Source: an uncultured Lachnoclostridium sp. (lineage in GTDB: Bacteria; Bacillota; Clostridia; Lachnospirales; Lachnospiraceae). From it: a stretch of 64,000 nucleotides of DNA. The DNA lies in contig CAMMSL010000002.1 in NCBI GenBank assembly GCA_946499505.1, positions 117,088 to 181,087 on the forward strand, given 5' to 3'. The position numbers were made by a program, and so were the translations under genes. The notes beneath the pieces were generated by a model, which ran no database searches, was not told where the DNA came from, and saw only the letters and a list, made by a program, of their open reading frames with translations. Positions 6,060-54,488 of this stretch are shown piece by piece (positions within the stretch are counted from its first letter, which is position 1; each line of letters opens with the position of its first letter).

Positions 6060-6130
6060 GACCGGACAGTAAAATAGAACAGGAAACAGAACAAAAGGCG
6101 GGATGCAAGCCATTGCACCCTGCCTATTTT

Positions 6131-6270
6131 TGCGCGATACGCCCGGAGGGCGACTGCCGTGCTTGCACGAGCGTGCATCCGACGGGCAGCAGTCATCGAG
6201 CGGCGATGCCGTGAGATGAGCGAGGTGTCGCGGTGGTTGGGCAGGGGAAGGAATCTTCCCCTAGCCGATT
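6131..6270 (+). repeat. Structured repeat element, copy 1 (upstream of rlmD)
   Basis: This 140-bp segment aligns without gaps to 21151-21290, with 90 of the first 100 bases identical. Closing stem: CGCGATAC (6133-6140) with GTGTCGCG (6225-6232). Inside are hairpins GCCC/GGGC (6141-6151), GACT...AGTC with GCC/GGC (6152-6194), CGTG(CTTG)CACG, and TCATC...GATGA enclosing CGGC/GCCG. A second domain, 6235-6270, pairs GGTTGG with CCGATT around AGGGGAAG(gaat)CTTCCCCT. Differences from copy 2 largely keep these pairs. It ends seven bases before the rlmD ribosome binding site. Confidence 0.75.
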
Positions 6271-6286
6271 GAATATGGAGATTTAT

Positions 6287-7657
6287 ATGAAAAAAGGACA
6301 GACATTCGAAGGAATTATTGAGAGAGTGGATTTCCCGAATAAAGGAATCGTATATATACCCGAAGAAGAGAAATATGTGACAGTAAAGAACGGGATCCCC
6401 GGGCAGAAAGTCCGCTTCGTGATCAACAAATTTAAACGAGGGAACGCAGAAGGACGGCTGCTGGAGGTGCTGGAAAAATCTCCTCTTGAAACAAGAGAGC
6501 CGGCGTGCAGCATCTTCCCGGCCTGCGGCGGATGTATGTACCAGACCATGCCCTATGAAGAGCAGATGAAGATGAAGGAAGGACAGATCCGCCGGATCAT
6601 GGATGAGGCGGTAAACGGGGAGTATGTCTTCGAGGGCGTGAAGGCAAGCCCGAAAGAATTCGGCTACCGGAATAAAATGGAGTTCTCATTCGGAGATGAG
6701 TACAAAGACGGACCACTTTCTCTGGGGCTCCACAAAAAAGGCAGCACATATGACGTACTGACTGCGTCAGACTGCCGCCTTGTCCACGAGGATTTGAACA
6801 AGATCCTTGTGTGCGTGCTGGAATATTTTCGGGAGAGAAATGTAAGCTTTTACAGGAAAATGCAGCATACCGGATATCTGCGGCATCTGCTCTTAAGGCG
6901 CGGTGATACGACAGGCGAGATACTGGTAAATCTGGTGACGACCACGCAGGAGGAATACGATTTGCAGCCGCTGACTGAGGCACTCCTGAAACTGGAGCTG
7001 GACGGGAAGATCGTGGGTATCCTGCACATCCTCAATGACTCTCTCTCTGACGTGGTGAAAAGCGATGAGACGCGTATTCTCTGGGGACAGGATTTCTTCT
7101 ATGAAAAACTGCTCGGCCTGGATTTCAAGATCACGCCGTTTTCCTTCTTTCAGCCTAATACCCGGGGCGCTGAAGTGCTCTATGAGACGGTGCGGGACTA
7201 TATCGGGGACATCCATGATATGACCGTGTTCGATCTTTTCAGCGGAACAGGAACGATCAGCCAGGTGCTGGCTCCTGTGGCAAAGCAGGTGGTAGGCGTG
7301 GAGATTGTCGAAGAAGCGGTGGAGGCTGCAAAAGAAAATGCCGCGAGAAACGGTATTTGCAACTGTAAATTCATAGCAGGCGATGTATTTCAGGTGCTGG
7401 ATGAACTGGAAGAAAAGCCGGATGTTATTGTGCTTGATCCGCCGAGGGACGGGATCCATCCGAAAGCTTTGCCGAAGATTTTAAGTTACGGTGTGGACAG
7501 GATCGTGTATATTTCCTGTAAGATGACAAGCCTTGCCAGAGACCTGGAGATGATGCAGATCGCTGGATACCGGGTAGAGAAGATGACGGCGGTAGACCAA
7601 TTCTGTGAGACGGTGCACTGCGAGGTAGTGGCTTTGCTTTCAAAGGTCAGAAAATAG
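6287..7657 (+). CDS. rlmD: 23S rRNA (uracil-5-)-methyltransferase RlmD/RumA family
   Basis: The 456-residue protein has an N-terminal TRAM domain (FEGIIERVDFPNKGIVYI), an iron-sulfur cysteine cluster (ACSIFPACGGCMYQ near 75-90), a Rossmann SAM site (VFDLFSGTGTIS) and the catalytic region with nucleophilic Cys (YISCKMTSLARD). The family converts a 23S rRNA uridine (U1939 or U747 class) to 5-methyluridine; the exact site cannot be told by eye. ATG 6287 is chosen because GGAG at 6277-6280 sits six bases upstream. The longer frame from 6233 would run through the repeat hairpin. Confidence 0.9.
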   Translation: MKKGQTFEGIIERVDFPNKGIVYIPEEEKYVTVKNGIPGQKVRFVINKFKRGNAEGRLLEVLEKSPLETREPACSIFPACGGCMYQTMPYEEQMKMKEGQIRRIMDEAVNGEYVFEGVKASPKEFGYRNKMEFSFGDEYKDGPLSLGLHKKGSTYDVLTASDCRLVHEDLNKILVCVLEYFRERNVSFYRKMQHTGYLRHLLLRRGDTTGEILVNLVTTTQEEYDLQPLTEALLKLELDGKIVGILHILNDSLSDVVKSDETRILWGQDFFYEKLLGLDFKITPFSFFQPNTRGAEVLYETVRDYIGDIHDMTVFDLFSGTGTISQVLAPVAKQVVGVEIVEEAVEAAKENAARNGICNCKFIAGDVFQVLDELEEKPDVIVLDPPRDGIHPKALPKILSYGVDRIVYISCKMTSLARDLEMMQIAGYRVEKMTAVDQFCETVHCEVVALLSKVRK

Positions 7658-19850: not shown

Positions 19851-20789
19851 ATGTGCACCTGTATCACCTACACTAACAACGATTTCTACTTCGGCCGCAA
19901 CCTTGATTTTGACTGTTCTTTTGGCGAAACCGTCACAATCACCCCGCGTAATTTTCCTCTTATTTTCCGGAAAGCCGGGCGGCAGGATCACCACTATGCC
20001 ATGATCGGCATGGCGTCGGCAAACGACAGTTTCCCGCTTTATGCCGAAGCTGTCAACGAAAAAGGTCTTGGGATGGCGGGGCTGAATTTCCCGGGAAATG
20101 CATACTATCAGAAACCGGACGGCGAAGGCCTTGAGATTACTTCGTTTGAAGTGATTGCGTGGATTTTGGGAAAATGTGCTTCTGTGGCGGAAGCGGAAGA
20201 GTTTCTGGGTGAAATGAAGATTGTTGATCTTGCATTTACGGATCAGATGCCGCCTGCACCGCTTCACTGGATGCTTGCAGACCGTGAGAGATGTCTTGTT
20301 CTTGAAGCGGTCAGAGATGGTCTGAAAGTATATGAAAATCTATTTGGAGTGCTGACGAACAATCCGCCTTTTGAGTATCATAGAATGAACATGAACAATT
20401 ATATGAACCTGACGGCGGAGAGTCCGCGAAACCGCTTTGCGGACAGGCTGAATCTCAGGCCTTATGCACAGGGAATGGGAGCCGTCGGGCTTCCGGGCGA
20501 CGCCTCATCGGCGTCCCGCTTTGTGCGCGCTGCATTTTTGAAGTGGAATTCCGTGGCGCCGGAGGAGGAAAAGGCGAATGTCTCCCAGTTCTTCCACATT
20601 CTGGACAGTGTAGCCATGGTTCGCGGGGCTGTGATAACAGATCAGGGAACTTTTGATATTACCACATATTCCTGCTGTGCCAATACGAGTACAGGCGTTT
20701 ACTATTATAAGACGTATGACGACTGCCGGGTGCGTGCAGTGGATATGTATGAGACAGATCTGGACGGGAAAGAACTAATTCAAAGATAA
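19851..20789 (+). CDS. bsh: Choloylglycine (bile salt) hydrolase
   Basis: The 312-residue N-terminal nucleophile hydrolase shows the family residues: Cys2 exposed after removal of Met1, Arg16, Asp19, Asn79 in GLNFPGNAYY, Asn170 in TNNPPF and Arg223 in SSASRFVRAAF. The MGAVGLPGDASSASRF block favours bile salt hydrolase (EC 3.5.1.24) over penicillin V acylase. It deconjugates glycine- or taurine-linked bile acids in the cytoplasm; no signal peptide is seen, as expected. It is monocistronic with a hairpin after the stop. Substrate preference cannot be read by eye. Confidence 0.9.
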   Translation: MCTCITYTNNDFYFGRNLDFDCSFGETVTITPRNFPLIFRKAGRQDHHYAMIGMASANDSFPLYAEAVNEKGLGMAGLNFPGNAYYQKPDGEGLEITSFEVIAWILGKCASVAEAEEFLGEMKIVDLAFTDQMPPAPLHWMLADRERCLVLEAVRDGLKVYENLFGVLTNNPPFEYHRMNMNNYMNLTAESPRNRFADRLNLRPYAQGMGAVGLPGDASSASRFVRAAFLKWNSVAPEEEKANVSQFFHILDSVAMVRGAVITDQGTFDITTYSCCANTSTGVYYYKTYDDCRVRAVDMYETDLDGKELIQR

Positions 20790-20860: not shown

Positions 20861-20865
20861 GTTAC

Positions 20866-21146
20866 CAGACCGATGAGGAAGAGCAAGTAACTTCAGTGGA
20901 CGCTTCACAGAGAGCTGCGGGCGGTGGGATCGCGGTATGCCGGACTTGGAGTGAATGGGCTTCTGAGGGCGAGTTGAAATTTGGAGTAGGCGAGCCGGAG
21001 AACTGACTCCGTTATCAAAGAAAGCATATGTCAGTATGCATGAGTGGATGTAGTATATTACGTCAAGCCGGGTGGCACCGCAGGAGTATTTGTATGAATT
21101 ACAGCTCTTGTCCCTGCAATTTTATTGTATGGGATAAGGGCTTTTT
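20866..21146 (+). promoter_or_regulatory. T-box riboswitch, predicted tRNA-Trp responsive
   Basis: Stem I has the loop-E element AGTA (20886-20889) opposite GAA, the AGAGAGC block (20909-20915) and GGCGGTG. The antiterminator T-box GGGTGGCACCGC (21070-21081) is near-consensus. The terminator GCTCTTGTCCC/GGGATAAGGGC (21104-21141) with TTTTT completes the switch. The specifier lies in GAATGGGC; TGG (20956-20958) reads as Trp. The TGGC bulge (21073-21076) demands a tRNA with discriminator G73, which tRNA-Trp has, while Gly (U73) and Phe (A73) do not. Uncharged tRNA-Trp would switch on the downstream dehydrogenase and transporter. Confidence 0.85.
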
Positions 21147-21150
21147 ATTT

Positions 21151-21290
21151 TGCGCGATACGCCCGGATGGCGACCGCCGTGCTTGCACGAGCGGGCATCC
21201 GACGGGCAAAGGTCATCGAGCGGCAATGCCGCGAGATGAACGAGGTATCGCGGTGAGCGGGTGAGGGAAGGAATCTTCCCTTATCCGCTC
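21151..21290 (+). repeat. Structured repeat element, copy 2 (between T-box and gldA-like gene)
   Basis: This copy is collinear with 6131-6270. Closing stem CGCGATAC/GTATCGCG is fully Watson-Crick here (one G-U in copy 1). GACC...GGTC replaces GACT...AGTC. The terminal domain GAGCGG (21255-21260)/CCGCTC (21285-21290) replaces the wobble-rich GGTTGG/CCGATT, around AGGGAAG(gaat)CTTCCCT. It starts five bases after the T-box terminator U-tract, so it lies in the operon leader. Confidence 0.75.
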
Positions 21291-27994: not shown

Positions 27995-28128
27995 GATTTC
28001 TGATCCGCTTGATTAATATTTATCTGCAGGAGGCTCCCATGTCAAGCCCTTGCCTGTAAACAGGTGCTTCGCAGGCTTGACATGGGAGCCTCCTGCAGAT
28101 ATAAAGTAGACAAGCGGAACCAGAAATC
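27995..28128. repeat. Long inverted repeat IR2 with a 28-bp perfect stem
   Basis: The core arms 28021-28048 and 28074-28101 (TATCTGCAGGAGGCTCCCAT and onward) are perfectly complementary for 28 bp. Outer arms GATTTCTG...CCGCTTG and CAAGCGG...CAGAAATC extend the hairpin across 27995-28128. The 25-nt loop contains a small CTGT/ACAG hairpin. Confidence 0.8.
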
Positions 28129-30265: not shown

Positions 30266-31180
30266 ATGAAATGGGTAAAACAATCAGTAGGTTATTGGTG
30301 TGACGATATATTGACTGGAAAATATGTGGGAAACGGGATATGCACTGCGATTCTGGATACCGGCATAGCGAGGCATCCGGATTTAAGAAACCGCATTTCC
30401 GCTTTCAGAAATTTTACAGGCAAAGTACAGGAAACCGTCAGCAGTGATGACAGCGGACACGGAACTCATGTGGCGGGAATTCTTGCCGGAGACGGGAAGG
30501 TCTCATCAGGGTTATATGCGGGAATGGCACCGGAAGCGGATCTTATTGTAGGAAAAGTGCTGGACCGCGAGGGAAATGGTAACGTTGATAATGTACTGCA
30601 AGGAATAGACTGGATCCTGAAAAACCGGGAACATTTTCAGGTGCGTATTGTAAACATCTCTGTCGGAACCCAGCCGGATCTTGCACAGGAACAAAAACAG
30701 GTTTTCCTGGAAGCGGTTGAAGAATTGTGGGACAGAGGGCTTGTTGTTGTAGTGTCGGCAGGGAATTACGGTCCGGGAGAAGGGACAGTTGCAGTTCCGG
30801 GAAACAGCCGCAAAGTTATCACGGTGGGCGTGCCTGACACAGAACTGCATTCCGCCGGCCGGCGAAAGAATAATATCAATTATTCCGGACGGGGACCGAC
30901 AGGCGCCTGCGTAGTGAAACCGGATGTTTTTGCGCCCGGCACGGGGATCATAAGCTGTAATGCACGGTACGGACGCCCCGGCGAGCATCCTTATATAATG
31001 AAGACAGGGACTTCGATGGCAACTCCGGTCGTATCCGGGGCAATTGCATGTCTCCTGTCCAAATATCCGGATATGACCAATGTAGAAGTGAAACTGAAAC
31101 TCAGAGAATCATGTGTGAAAAGCCCGGGAACCGGGGCGGGATGGGGACTTTTGAATGTGGAAAAGCTGATGAAAGCGTAA
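30266..31180 (+). CDS. S8 family serine peptidase (intracellular subtilisin type)
   Basis: The 304-residue protein has the triad Asp31 (AILDTG), His65 (GHGTHVAG) and Ser250 (TGTSMATP), plus oxyanion Asn in SAGNYGPG. There is no signal peptide and only a short N-terminal extension without a clear propeptide, so it is probably cytoplasmic. The ribosome binding site is weak (GGGA about 20 bases upstream). It lies divergent from the Cys/Gly-rich peptide, a possible substrate, though that link is only positional. Confidence 0.92.
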   Translation: MKWVKQSVGYWCDDILTGKYVGNGICTAILDTGIARHPDLRNRISAFRNFTGKVQETVSSDDSGHGTHVAGILAGDGKVSSGLYAGMAPEADLIVGKVLDREGNGNVDNVLQGIDWILKNREHFQVRIVNISVGTQPDLAQEQKQVFLEAVEELWDRGLVVVVSAGNYGPGEGTVAVPGNSRKVITVGVPDTELHSAGRRKNNINYSGRGPTGACVVKPDVFAPGTGIISCNARYGRPGEHPYIMKTGTSMATPVVSGAIACLLSKYPDMTNVEVKLKLRESCVKSPGTGAGWGLLNVEKLMKA

Positions 31181-31182
31181 AA

Positions 31183-31261
31183 AGGGACAGGGCAAAGTTG
31201 GGTTTGGGACGTAGTAAAATCCGGTTTTACTACGTCCCAAACCCAACTTTGCCCTGTCCCT
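31183..31261. repeat. 37-bp perfect palindrome
   Basis: Arms 31183-31219 (AGGGACAGGGCAAAGTTGGG and onward) and 31225-31261 are exact complements around a 5-nt loop (tccgg). It begins two bases after the subtilase stop and has no following U-tract, so it is not an ordinary terminator. Confidence 0.85.
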
Positions 31262-31330
31262 GATTAAACTGTCAAGAAAAAATCCTTGACAGCCCATTCC
31301 CTTTCGTGTATGATAACCAAGGTGACTGTG

Positions 31331-44169: not shown

Positions 44170-44191
44170 GCTCAAGCCTTGCATAAAAATT

Positions 44192-44241
44192 GAGAACATC
44201 AATCATCGTGCTTGCACGAATGAGGGATGTTCTCTTTTTTT
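44192..44241 (+). terminator. Terminator after the NSS transporter
   Basis: GAGAACATC (44192-44200) pairs with GATGTTCTC (44226-44234), with an inner CGTGCTTGCACG hairpin, followed by seven T. The inner hairpin matches a hairpin in the two copies of the structured repeat. Confidence 0.9.
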
Positions 44242-44246
44242 ATATA

Positions 44247-44330
44247 GGGCGCAGCCCGTGAGCGAGATGGAGCGCGAAGCGGGGAATCGAGCTGCAAGGC
44301 AAGAGCCGGATGGAGCCAAGGCGCAGCCCG
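44247..44330. repeat. GC-rich intergenic segment with direct repeat GGCGCAGCCCG
   Basis: The 11-bp GGCGCAGCCCG occurs at 44248-44258 and 44320-44330, flanking 61 GC-rich bases of purine-rich, tRNA-like-unrelated sequence with no frame. It differs in composition from the AT-rich promoter that follows and may be a small interspersed element. The rest of the 306-bp gap is the MerR promoter region. Confidence 0.4.
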
Positions 44331-52538: not shown

Positions 52539-52641
52539 AAAATCGTTTCTTATATAATTTCTCTACCACCCCGATCACCGCATACAGCGCCATTGTCATA
52601 ATGCACAGCAGCACGATCGACATGAGCAGCCAGTTCATCTT
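52539..52641 (-). pseudogene. Duplicated 3' end of the ABC permease gene
   Basis: On the minus strand this encodes KMNWLLMSIVLLCIM, continuing to the stop (34 codons). It is nearly identical to the last 34 codons of the complete permease gene at 53676-54488 and ends with its own TGA. Homology stops abruptly at 52641. The MNT-HEPN pair lies between the two copies. The rest of the 374-bp gap, up to 52806, shows only an AT-rich promoter region. Confidence 0.85.
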
Positions 52642-52806
52642 GAAGAGGTGAAGAGACAAAAAGACAAAATGACCATCGTTCAAGTAATATAGAAAGCTGA
52701 TAAGAATGACGAAAAACGTTGAAGGTGTCAGGTATACAAATTTTAATGAATACGGTATAATAAATATTAAAATAAAGGGGCTTTAAACTGAAAGAGGTGA
52801 GGTCAA

Positions 52807-53675: not shown

Positions 53676-54488
53676 TTAAAATCGTTTCCAATATATTTTC
53701 TCTACTACCCCGATCACCGCATACAGCGCCATTGCCATAATACATAACAGTACGATCGACATGAGCAGCCAGTTCATCTTAAATACCTGACTTGAATAGA
53801 TAATGAGATACCCCAGCCCGTTCCTTGCAGCGAGAAATTCCCCGATTACGACGCCTACGAGGCAGAGCCCGATATTGACTTTCATGTTGCTGATGATCGC
53901 CGGGACCGAGCTTGGCAGTACGACTTTAAACAGTGCATGCCTGCGGCTCCCGTGGAGTGTGTAGATGAGTTTGATCTTTTCTTTGTCGACGGTGGTAAAA
54001 CTGGTGTACAGGTTCATGATGCTTCCGAATACGGCGACAGACATGCCGGCTGCGATGATTGTTGTAGGAGTAGCCCCAAGCCATACGATCAGAAGCGGTG
54101 CCAGCGCGGATTTCGGCAGGCTGTTCAATACTACCAGATAGGGCTCCAGTATTTCGGAAAGTCCCCGGCTGCACCAGAGGAGGACGGCAATCAGGATACC
54201 GGAGACAGTCACAAGCAGGAAACTTACAATCGTCTCATACAGTGTGATGCCGATATGCAGGAAGATTGAATGGTCCAGCACCATTTCCCAGAAGCAGAGC
54301 GCGATCCGGGAGGGACTGCTGAAGATAAAAGAGTCGATAATGCCGTAATCGGCGCATACTTCCCACAGAAAAAGGAAAAGGATCAGAATAAGGATCCGGG
54401 CGGCGCATACGATCATACGGTGGCGGCGCAGTCTGTACAGAAAGAGTTCCTGTCCGTCAGACCTTTTTTTCGGTGATTTGTCCATCAT
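53676..54488 (-). CDS. ABC transporter permease, SsuC/TauC type
   Basis: The 270-residue protein has about six membrane helices and the EAA loop (LPKSALAPLLIVWLGATPTT). The family imports sulfonates, nitrate, taurine or pyrimidine precursors. No substrate-binding protein is in the window, so the substrate is open. It overlaps the ATPase gene by 32 bp. Its last 34 codons are repeated at 52539-52641. Confidence 0.93.
   Translation of the reverse strand: MMDKSPKKRSDGQELFLYRLRRHRMIVCAARILILILFLFLWEVCADYGIIDSFIFSSPSRIALCFWEMVLDHSIFLHIGITLYETIVSFLLVTVSGILIAVLLWCSRGLSEILEPYLVVLNSLPKSALAPLLIVWLGATPTTIIAAGMSVAVFGSIMNLYTSFTTVDKEKIKLIYTLHGSRRHALFKVVLPSSVPAIISNMKVNIGLCLVGVVIGEFLAARNGLGYLIIYSSQVFKMNWLLMSIVLLCIMAMALYAVIGVVEKIYWKRF

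Follow-up and report, generated by a model that had tools for sequence, protein, structure and literature searches.

A mobile, structured repeat behind intrinsic terminators in Lachnospiraceae and its possible relation to group IIC introns

Two copies of a structured element in the window

The window analyzed here is a 64,000-nt stretch from an uncultured Lachnoclostridium sp. (GenBank assembly GCA_946499505.1, contig CAMMSL010000002.1, positions 117,088 to 181,087). It contains two copies of an element of about 137 nt, whose limits as given in Table 1 were taken from the empty sites described below. Copy 1 has a terminator hairpin upstream and its 3' end lies 7 nt before the GGAG of rlmD. Copy 2 follows the terminator of a T-box leader. 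A choloylglycine (bile salt) hydrolase gene (19851-20789; NF038245, 433.6 bits) is found upstream of the T-box and copy 2. The initial annotation, made from the letters of the window, had placed one copy at the rlmD ribosome-binding site and the other behind the T-box terminator. Both positions are right. A special tie to the rlmD site or to the T-box is not supported; the two are among many terminators.

The two copies, already described there as structured and gapless, align without gaps with 90/100 identities (6131-6230 and 21151-21250) and with 120/140 identities over the full ranges first assigned to them. A repeat search returned 87% identity over 140 nt (6128-6267 and 21148-21287), and the BLAST E value of the pair in a search within the own genome was 8.2e-44. 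Both fold better than shuffled sequences (z = -3.87 and -8.00 for the two copies), and none of 200 shuffles was as good in either case.

Table 1. Features of the two element copies and their surroundings (window coordinates).
Feature	Position	Strand	Basis or remark
Intrinsic terminator of upstream small gene, host sequence	6096..6131	+	hairpin 6096-6125, T-run 6127-6131; relatives L237, L239, L241 and L246-L248 have it without element
Last target base of copy 1 (G)	6132	+	base before the insertion point
Element copy 1, YGCGATA...CCGAT	6133..6269	+	covariance model R2, 137 bits at 6127-6269; empty-site comparison
P1, 5' strand (pairs with about 6226-6232)	6133..6139	+	changes on both sides in 7/7 pairs; 92.7% of cells paired
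P2 arm and tip hairpin GUG(CUUG)CAC	6141..6187	+	changes on both sides in 15/17 pairs; CTTG loop in 69/97 rows
P3 hairpin with GA/GA internal loop	6194..6216 (approximate)	+	changes on both sides in 9/9 pairs (helices 4 and 5); GA/GA in 86/97 rows
P1, 3' strand	6226..6232 (approximate)	+	covariation and covariance-model alignment
Terminal hairpin, tail CCTAGCCGAT in its 3' strand	6236..6269	+	changes on both sides in 15/15 pairs; tail comparison with group IIC introns
rlmD, downstream of copy 1 (context)	6287..7657	+	TIGR00479, 288.6 bits, cut-off 183.55
T-box leader, its terminator precedes copy 2 (context)	20864..21118	+	RF00230, 83 bits (L020 1218-1472), gathering score 93
Element copy 2	21153..21289	+	covariance model R2, 146.6 bits at 21147-21289; G003 orthologous site without element

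Fold and selection

From a seed of nine copies, a consensus fold was derived in which a closing stem (P1) surrounds two arms (P2 and P3) and is followed by a terminal hairpin. The fold was examined in an alignment (A4) of 97 matches with E <= 1e-8 from 95 loci, in which 94.0% of the cells are paired and 48 of the 50 pairs show changes on both sides. The double-change cells number 456 as compared with 119.2 in shuffled alignments, the pairs with such changes 48 as compared with 25.0, and 0/500 shuffles reached any of five measures. The structure was also better than every slid control (57 to 103 double-change cells). Fitting to the model and the relatedness of the rows both bias the test towards the structure, but the effect is so large (456 cells against 119 in shuffles and 57 to 103 in slid controls) that an artefact is unlikely.

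Departures on a single side are more often G-U (204 cells) than A-C (92 cells). G-U is in excess in 32 pairs and A-C in nine (p = 4e-4, a value uncorrected for relatedness). The P3 internal loop reads GA/GA and the P2 tip loop CTTG in most rows (Table 1). The G-U excess and the GA/GA loop indicate selection on the + strand fold and point to the + strand as the folded molecule. Folding of this strand as RNA is the simplest reading; the G-U excess also fits single-stranded DNA of the same strand. The both-side changes and the strand bias lend strong support to the earlier suggestion that a folded RNA or hairpin DNA is under selection. Among the stems named at that time, CGCGATAC/GTGTCGCG is the closing stem P1 of the family consensus, GCGGC/GCCGT is the P3 tip and GGTTGG/CCGATT forms the base of the terminal hairpin. 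The stem GACT/AGTC is not conserved; all four of its pairs are present in just 42/97 copies.

In L056, L074, L019 and L018, hairpin modules (e.g., GGTGCTGCGTGCCAGTGGCACGC or its reverse complement) are added or exchanged within the arms or replace them.

Empty sites and ends of the element

Of 58 genomes in the genus, 56 had a match to the query for the rlmD site; 30 loci were fetched, of which 29 could be compared side by side. Some sites carry the full element (L232-L234), some carry shorter or different relatives (e.g., L235, L236, L238, L240 and L242-L244), and others have none (e.g., the loci listed in Table 1). G036 reads TTTTTG[CGCGATA...CCGAT]CGGATATGG at this site and G003 reads TTTTTG^CGGATATGG; the sequence of the empty G003 site is TTTTTGCGGATATGG. 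A second pair came from a G019 copy that is absent from the own genome (TTTTG[CGCGATA...CCCGAT]TGAAAATA versus TTTTTG^TGAAAATA). From these empty sites it was concluded that the unit begins with YGCGATA, ends with CCGAT and enters behind T-run-G with no duplication of the target, the insertion point being open to a shift of one or two bases at single sites. At the copy 2 site, G003 lacks the element. The upstream flank there is 99% identical and the downstream flank 92%, and the junction bases differ, so this site is taken as a presence/absence case with no exact breakpoint.

The 5' end reads (G)YGCG..., with the G coming from the target and Y standing for T in 46 rows and for C in 45 (97 rows in all). 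The commonest 3' end is CGAT. The insertion is in most cases followed on its right by Y and then R. A two-base YR target duplication was considered, as Y-R is found at both flanks, and rejected: there is no correlation between left and right bases (p = 0.8). The terminal inverted repeats and target-site duplication of classical MITEs were not found. Tandem units are present in several loci, with a second, often shortened unit after CCGAT. Repeated insertion at one T-run would put the newest unit beside the terminator.

Among 128 profile matches the 5' end is kept in 104 and the 3' end in 80. Fifteen of the 24 matches that lack the 5' end are antisense hits on the palindromic hairpin by manual count. 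The 3' losses may be read as incomplete copying, a reading that is not forced, since deletions that spare the terminator give the same polarity.

Insertion behind intrinsic terminators

The search gave 156 matches (149 after duplicate removal), and the upstream flank was scored for 144. A hairpin of -8 kcal/mol or better ending within 12 nt of the T-run is present in 136/144 copies and at 107/288 random positions. At -15 kcal/mol or better the counts are 116/144 and 15/288, and for a hairpin combined with at least four T in eight they are 129/144 and 18/288. Eight copies fall below the -8 kcal/mol criterion, and in four of them the match begins within the element. As many loci (70/156 matches) had been fetched with a pattern beginning with TTTT, the count was repeated on the set fetched by other means. 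In this set the hairpin is found in 78/82 copies as compared with 20/81 positions 70 nt upstream and 15/85 positions behind the element; with the T criterion added, the numbers are 73/82, 2/81 and 1/85. The hairpin is the cleaner measure of the two, as the covariance model itself includes the T-run. The terminators differ from copy to copy and are therefore host sequence. The element is oriented in the sense of the terminator. One insertion was found at GATTG^, which has no T-run.

Two side observations concern the same niche. The terminator hairpin at window positions 44190-44330 contains CGTGCTTGCACG, which resembles the P2 tip (R2 15.2 bits, E 0.07), and a different GC-rich stretch (GGGCGCAGCCCGTGAGCGAGATGGAGCGCG...) stands behind its T-run. 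A second type of repeat (CGAGCCAAAGTCCGTGCTTGCACGAGACCTTGGCGAC...) is located behind terminators or serves as an element landing site (L268 2067-2162, L242 near the rlmD site, and the upstream flank in L024). It looks as if several repeat families use the same terminator niche.

Distribution and family status

The own genome gave 19 BLAST matches to copy 1 (copy 1 counted). With the covariance model it gave 24 matches at E <= 0.01, among them pieces of tandem units. The element was found in 25/61 genomes including the own one, and all 25 belong to one genus (25/37 genomes there). Within the Lachnospiraceae it has a patchy distribution in at least 28 of 250 sampled genera, the own genus included (E <= 1e-4); this is a lower bound, as 12 candidates were scored per genome. 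A class-wide search with the broader model R2 was positive in 6/391 genomes, again including the own genome. Two of these lie outside the family and gave a single weak match each. They are L314 (G052, another family of the order; 41.9 bits) and L315 (G626, same class; 36.7 bits), weak relatives that each stand behind a hairpin. Carriers among the named records listed (at least 80 loci) are Mediterraneibacter, Blautia, Eisenbergiella, Lachnoclostridium, Dorea and Anaerostipes. No match to the element was found in phages, plasmids or viral contigs at the settings used (one exact pattern in the viral scan), so spread by these agents is not indicated.

Three identical copies with different flanks are found in G261. 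Among five copies compared in G019 the best pairs are 95-99% identical, and nine copies compared in the own genome reach 88.5% identity at most. Since identical copies stand at different sites, it is the unit itself that is multiplied.

The Rfam collection (4227 families) gave no match at gathering score to the copies in the window and none up to E 5 to the copies in ten further loci. The family had not been recognised in the initial annotation, and the copies searched are covered by no Rfam family. No description of such an element was found in the titles and abstract beginnings of the open-licence papers searched.

Gene context

A simple ORF caller found 107 upstream genes running the same way as the element and 18 running the other way. 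Downstream there were 96 genes in the same direction and 33 in the other (33/129), and those 33 copies cannot act as leader of the next gene because that gene points the other way. Co-direction of the downstream genes was not significantly above that of control terminators (53:20 versus 80:53, p = 0.09). Judged by eye, the translations of the downstream genes of the own genome seem to be unrelated.

These data bear on the reading that the element is a cis-acting RNA regulator, which would act on read-through transcripts behind terminators and be retained by selection at many genes. The conserved + strand fold fits such a regulator, as do the many copies placed between terminator and RBS (of the 96 downstream genes in the same direction, 43 have their start within 50 nt) and the 20/22 co-directional downstream ORFs in the own genome (ORFs found for 24 loci). 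The unrelated look of these downstream genes, the opposite direction of about a quarter of the downstream genes in the full count, the lack of significant co-direction and the variable presence of the element at orthologous sites among species argue against it, and we consider regulation distinctly unlikely as the explanation of the family. Different downstream genes indicate a mobile repeat and not a riboregulator class. The initial annotation had proposed that conserved ends would mark a mobile element and a conserved gene context a riboregulator; ends and target are kept and gene context is not, so the outcome is mobile. We conclude with high confidence that this is a mobile, structured, terminator-seeking element.

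Shared target and tail with group IIC introns

Group IIC introns are described in the excerpted text of PMC4424553 as inserting directly behind intrinsic terminators, with intron ends GUGYG...AY. The element has the same target choice: it stands directly 3' of intrinsic terminators, in the sense orientation and without duplication (129/144 copies; 73/82 in the set fetched without the T-run pattern). RF02001-type (IIC) introns of these genomes were scored here for an upstream hairpin. Of 30 loci fetched, five lacked a start that could be recognised. Among the 25 scored, 23 have a hairpin of -8 kcal/mol or better ahead of the start motif; two of the 25 starts were probably mis-picked. An intron subgroup that starts with GTTYGC mostly follows T-run-purine, like the element. 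In G261, the start of a group IIC intron follows CCCTTTTTTG, and its end abuts CGCGATACGCCCGG of an element, at exactly the insertion point that the element itself uses. The contig stops 20 bases into this element, and L103 is probably the far side of the same junction. In G135, a fragment of an intron (31.8 bits, slightly below the Rfam cut-off) follows CTTCCGGTGATTG^, a target without T-run, and an element of the own genome follows this target too.

The 3' ends are similar as well. The tail CCTACTCGAT is found in six of seven RF02001-type introns (L283, L284, L285, L293, L373 and L398) and CCTATCGAT in L294; in the L283 intron the RF00029 match ends exactly at CCTACTCGAT. The commonest element tail is CCTATCCGAT (39/77 copies, chosen by their last five bases), and CCTACTCGAT occurs exactly in five. 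When 135 copies were taken without selection, the last ten bases matched CCTACTCGAT at 5.84 of 10 positions on average, a value reached by 4 of 20,000 shuffled tails, and 72/135 copies matched at seven or more positions. In G180, an intron (L398) and an element (L084) both end with CCTACTCGAT. The tails of four other group II introns match it at 8, 8, 7 and 5 of 10 positions. Since these tails are similar too, the tail points to group II introns generally and the target alone to class IIC.

The element does not belong to the group II introns, as domain V was searched for and is missing: RF00029 gave no match over the window copies and none in ten further loci up to E 5. For the D1-D4 scaffold there was no RF02001 match in the own genome and no match to any group II family in the ten loci. 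The element encodes no protein and is about 137 nt long, compared with about 1.9 kb for group IIC introns. At element sites, the G that opens the GUGYG start of introns belongs to the target and not to the element. Both share the terminator target in the same orientation, precise insertion and an RNA structure under selection, and they have a similar 3' end, CCUAC/U..GAY.

An alternative is that the copies are deletion remnants of group IIC introns decaying in place, for which the identical target and similar 3' tail could be cited. The model R2 found no clear match in the intron loci (the best one, 22.2 bits, lies beside IS200 in L268, and the others reach 15.2 bits at most), the element has kept a covarying structure of its own over 97 rows, and identical copies at different sites mean that the unit itself multiplies. 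The remnant reading is largely contradicted, and we regard it as extremely improbable.

We propose instead that the element is a non-autonomous mobile unit whose + strand folds into P1 around P2 and P3, followed by the terminal hairpin, and whose target is a hairpin, T-run and purine (^) directly 3' of an intrinsic terminator, entered without duplication. Group IIC intron machinery would move it in trans, so that element and intron would relate to each other as SINE to LINE. The domain V-less RNA might be joined to DNA by a ribozyme supplied in trans or by the reverse transcriptase of the intron alone. This trans model derives from the target that the introns share with the element and from their very similar 3' tail, and on these comparisons of sequence we would give it an even chance. 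Intron-driven movement is about as probable as all other mechanisms taken together, and no other single explanation accounts as well for the shared target and tail. The repeated terminator and tail counts and the R2 search of the intron loci left these odds as they were. Somewhat less probable is the fuller picture of a bacterial SINE counterpart: a small RNA, free of ribozyme core and protein, that may borrow the target choice and 3'-end recognition of IIC introns and spread behind terminators across the family.

Several observations speak against the trans model: the lack of a domain V or D1-D4 match in the element, the absence of a clear R2 match in the intron loci, the similar tails of other group II introns, the G that comes from the target, and the G-U excess, which a single-stranded DNA intermediate would explain as well. 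Co-occurrence in the genomes gives the model no support and also counts against it. RF02001 matches (E <= 0.001) are found in 8/25 element-bearing genomes of the genus and in 6/12 others, and over all 60 genomes searched in 15/42 and 9/18, with no excess in either comparison. The own genome, with 24 element matches, has no RVT_1, RF00029 or RF02001 match. G019, with its 95-99% identical copies, has no RF02001 match; it has three reverse transcriptase loci, two with other group II types and one without a group II match. It can be argued, as reasoning and not as evidence, that introns come and go while element copies remain, which would explain the absent co-occurrence.

Other candidate mobilizers

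The element could instead belong to an IS200/IS605-type (Y1, HUH) transposon as its MITE, or be a RAYT-mobilized repeat. The + strand would then move as single-stranded DNA and be cut in after a T-rich target without duplication. The insertion without duplication, T-rich left flank, strand-specific fold and terminal hairpins are in line with this mechanism as generally known. Y1_Tnp matches are present in 14/18 genomes tested, and the own genome has a RAYT-like gene (269 aa, Y1_Tnp 31.2 bits) with similar genes in several other genomes. G261, in which the copies are identical, and G150 gave no Y1 match, both being draft assemblies. The fetched flanks of Y1/RAYT genes contain no match to the element except the weak relative in L268 beside IS200 (22.2 bits), and within these flanks no Y1 or RAYT gene has ends in common with it. 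This mechanism also leaves unexplained why target and tail are common to group IIC introns. Judged by genome, RAYT/Y1 was a promising mobilizer, but the RAYT flanks carry other palindromes and G261 has no Y1 match despite its identical copies. We rate such an origin as unlikely.

The RAYT-like gene of the own genome (L302 2666-3475, G000:C16) is flanked by palindromes with GGGACGTAGTAAAA...TTTTACTACGTCCC. A palindrome similar to these is found at 31170-31274 of the window.

Copying might also need no dedicated enzyme: replication would stall at the terminator hairpin, and the nascent end with its T-run would anneal to a different T-run, copy the element and return (template switching). A 5' junction fixed at the T-run and the many copies without 3' end (5' end in 104/128, 3' end in 80/128) fit this reading, although this polarity may just reflect intolerance of deletions into the terminator. 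Template switching would, however, copy any sequence behind terminators and not this element specifically. One tail is common to 39/77 full-length copies whose right flanks are different, and the insertion at GATTG^ has no T-run. We consider this mechanism very unlikely.

Comparison with known repeats and implications

Short, dispersed, intergenic and structured repeats are known in another Firmicute, Streptococcus pneumoniae, as BOX, RUP and SPRITE, of which BOX is modular. They differ from the element in sequence and fold, and we know of no link between them and terminators or group II introns. The bcr1 repeat of the Bacillus cereus group is, like the element, a dispersed repeat of about 150 bp with a conserved RNA fold and traits of a mobile element. 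It is described with target duplications, of which the element shows none. REP/BIME sequences with RAYT are similar in being dispersed, palindromic and intergenic, and a RAYT-like gene is present in the own genome. Unlike the element, REPs are 20-40 bp in length with a GTAG or CGTC tag, as given in the excerpted text of PMC3733652, and RAYT is flanked here by other palindromes.

If the intron link is true, group II introns have ribozyme-free parasites and a LINE/SINE-type relation exists in bacteria. The RNA needs of a group IIC reverse transcriptase could then be defined on a 137-nt substrate. Even without this link, many genes of common gut bacteria receive a rigid fold in their read-through transcripts from a structured repeat of this kind.

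Two further repeats were noted in the window. A 113-nt direct repeat (52539-52651 and 53678-53790) is 88% identical with its copies 1139 bases apart, and a 45-nt inverted repeat at 28004-28118 is 89% complementary with 25 nt between its arms.
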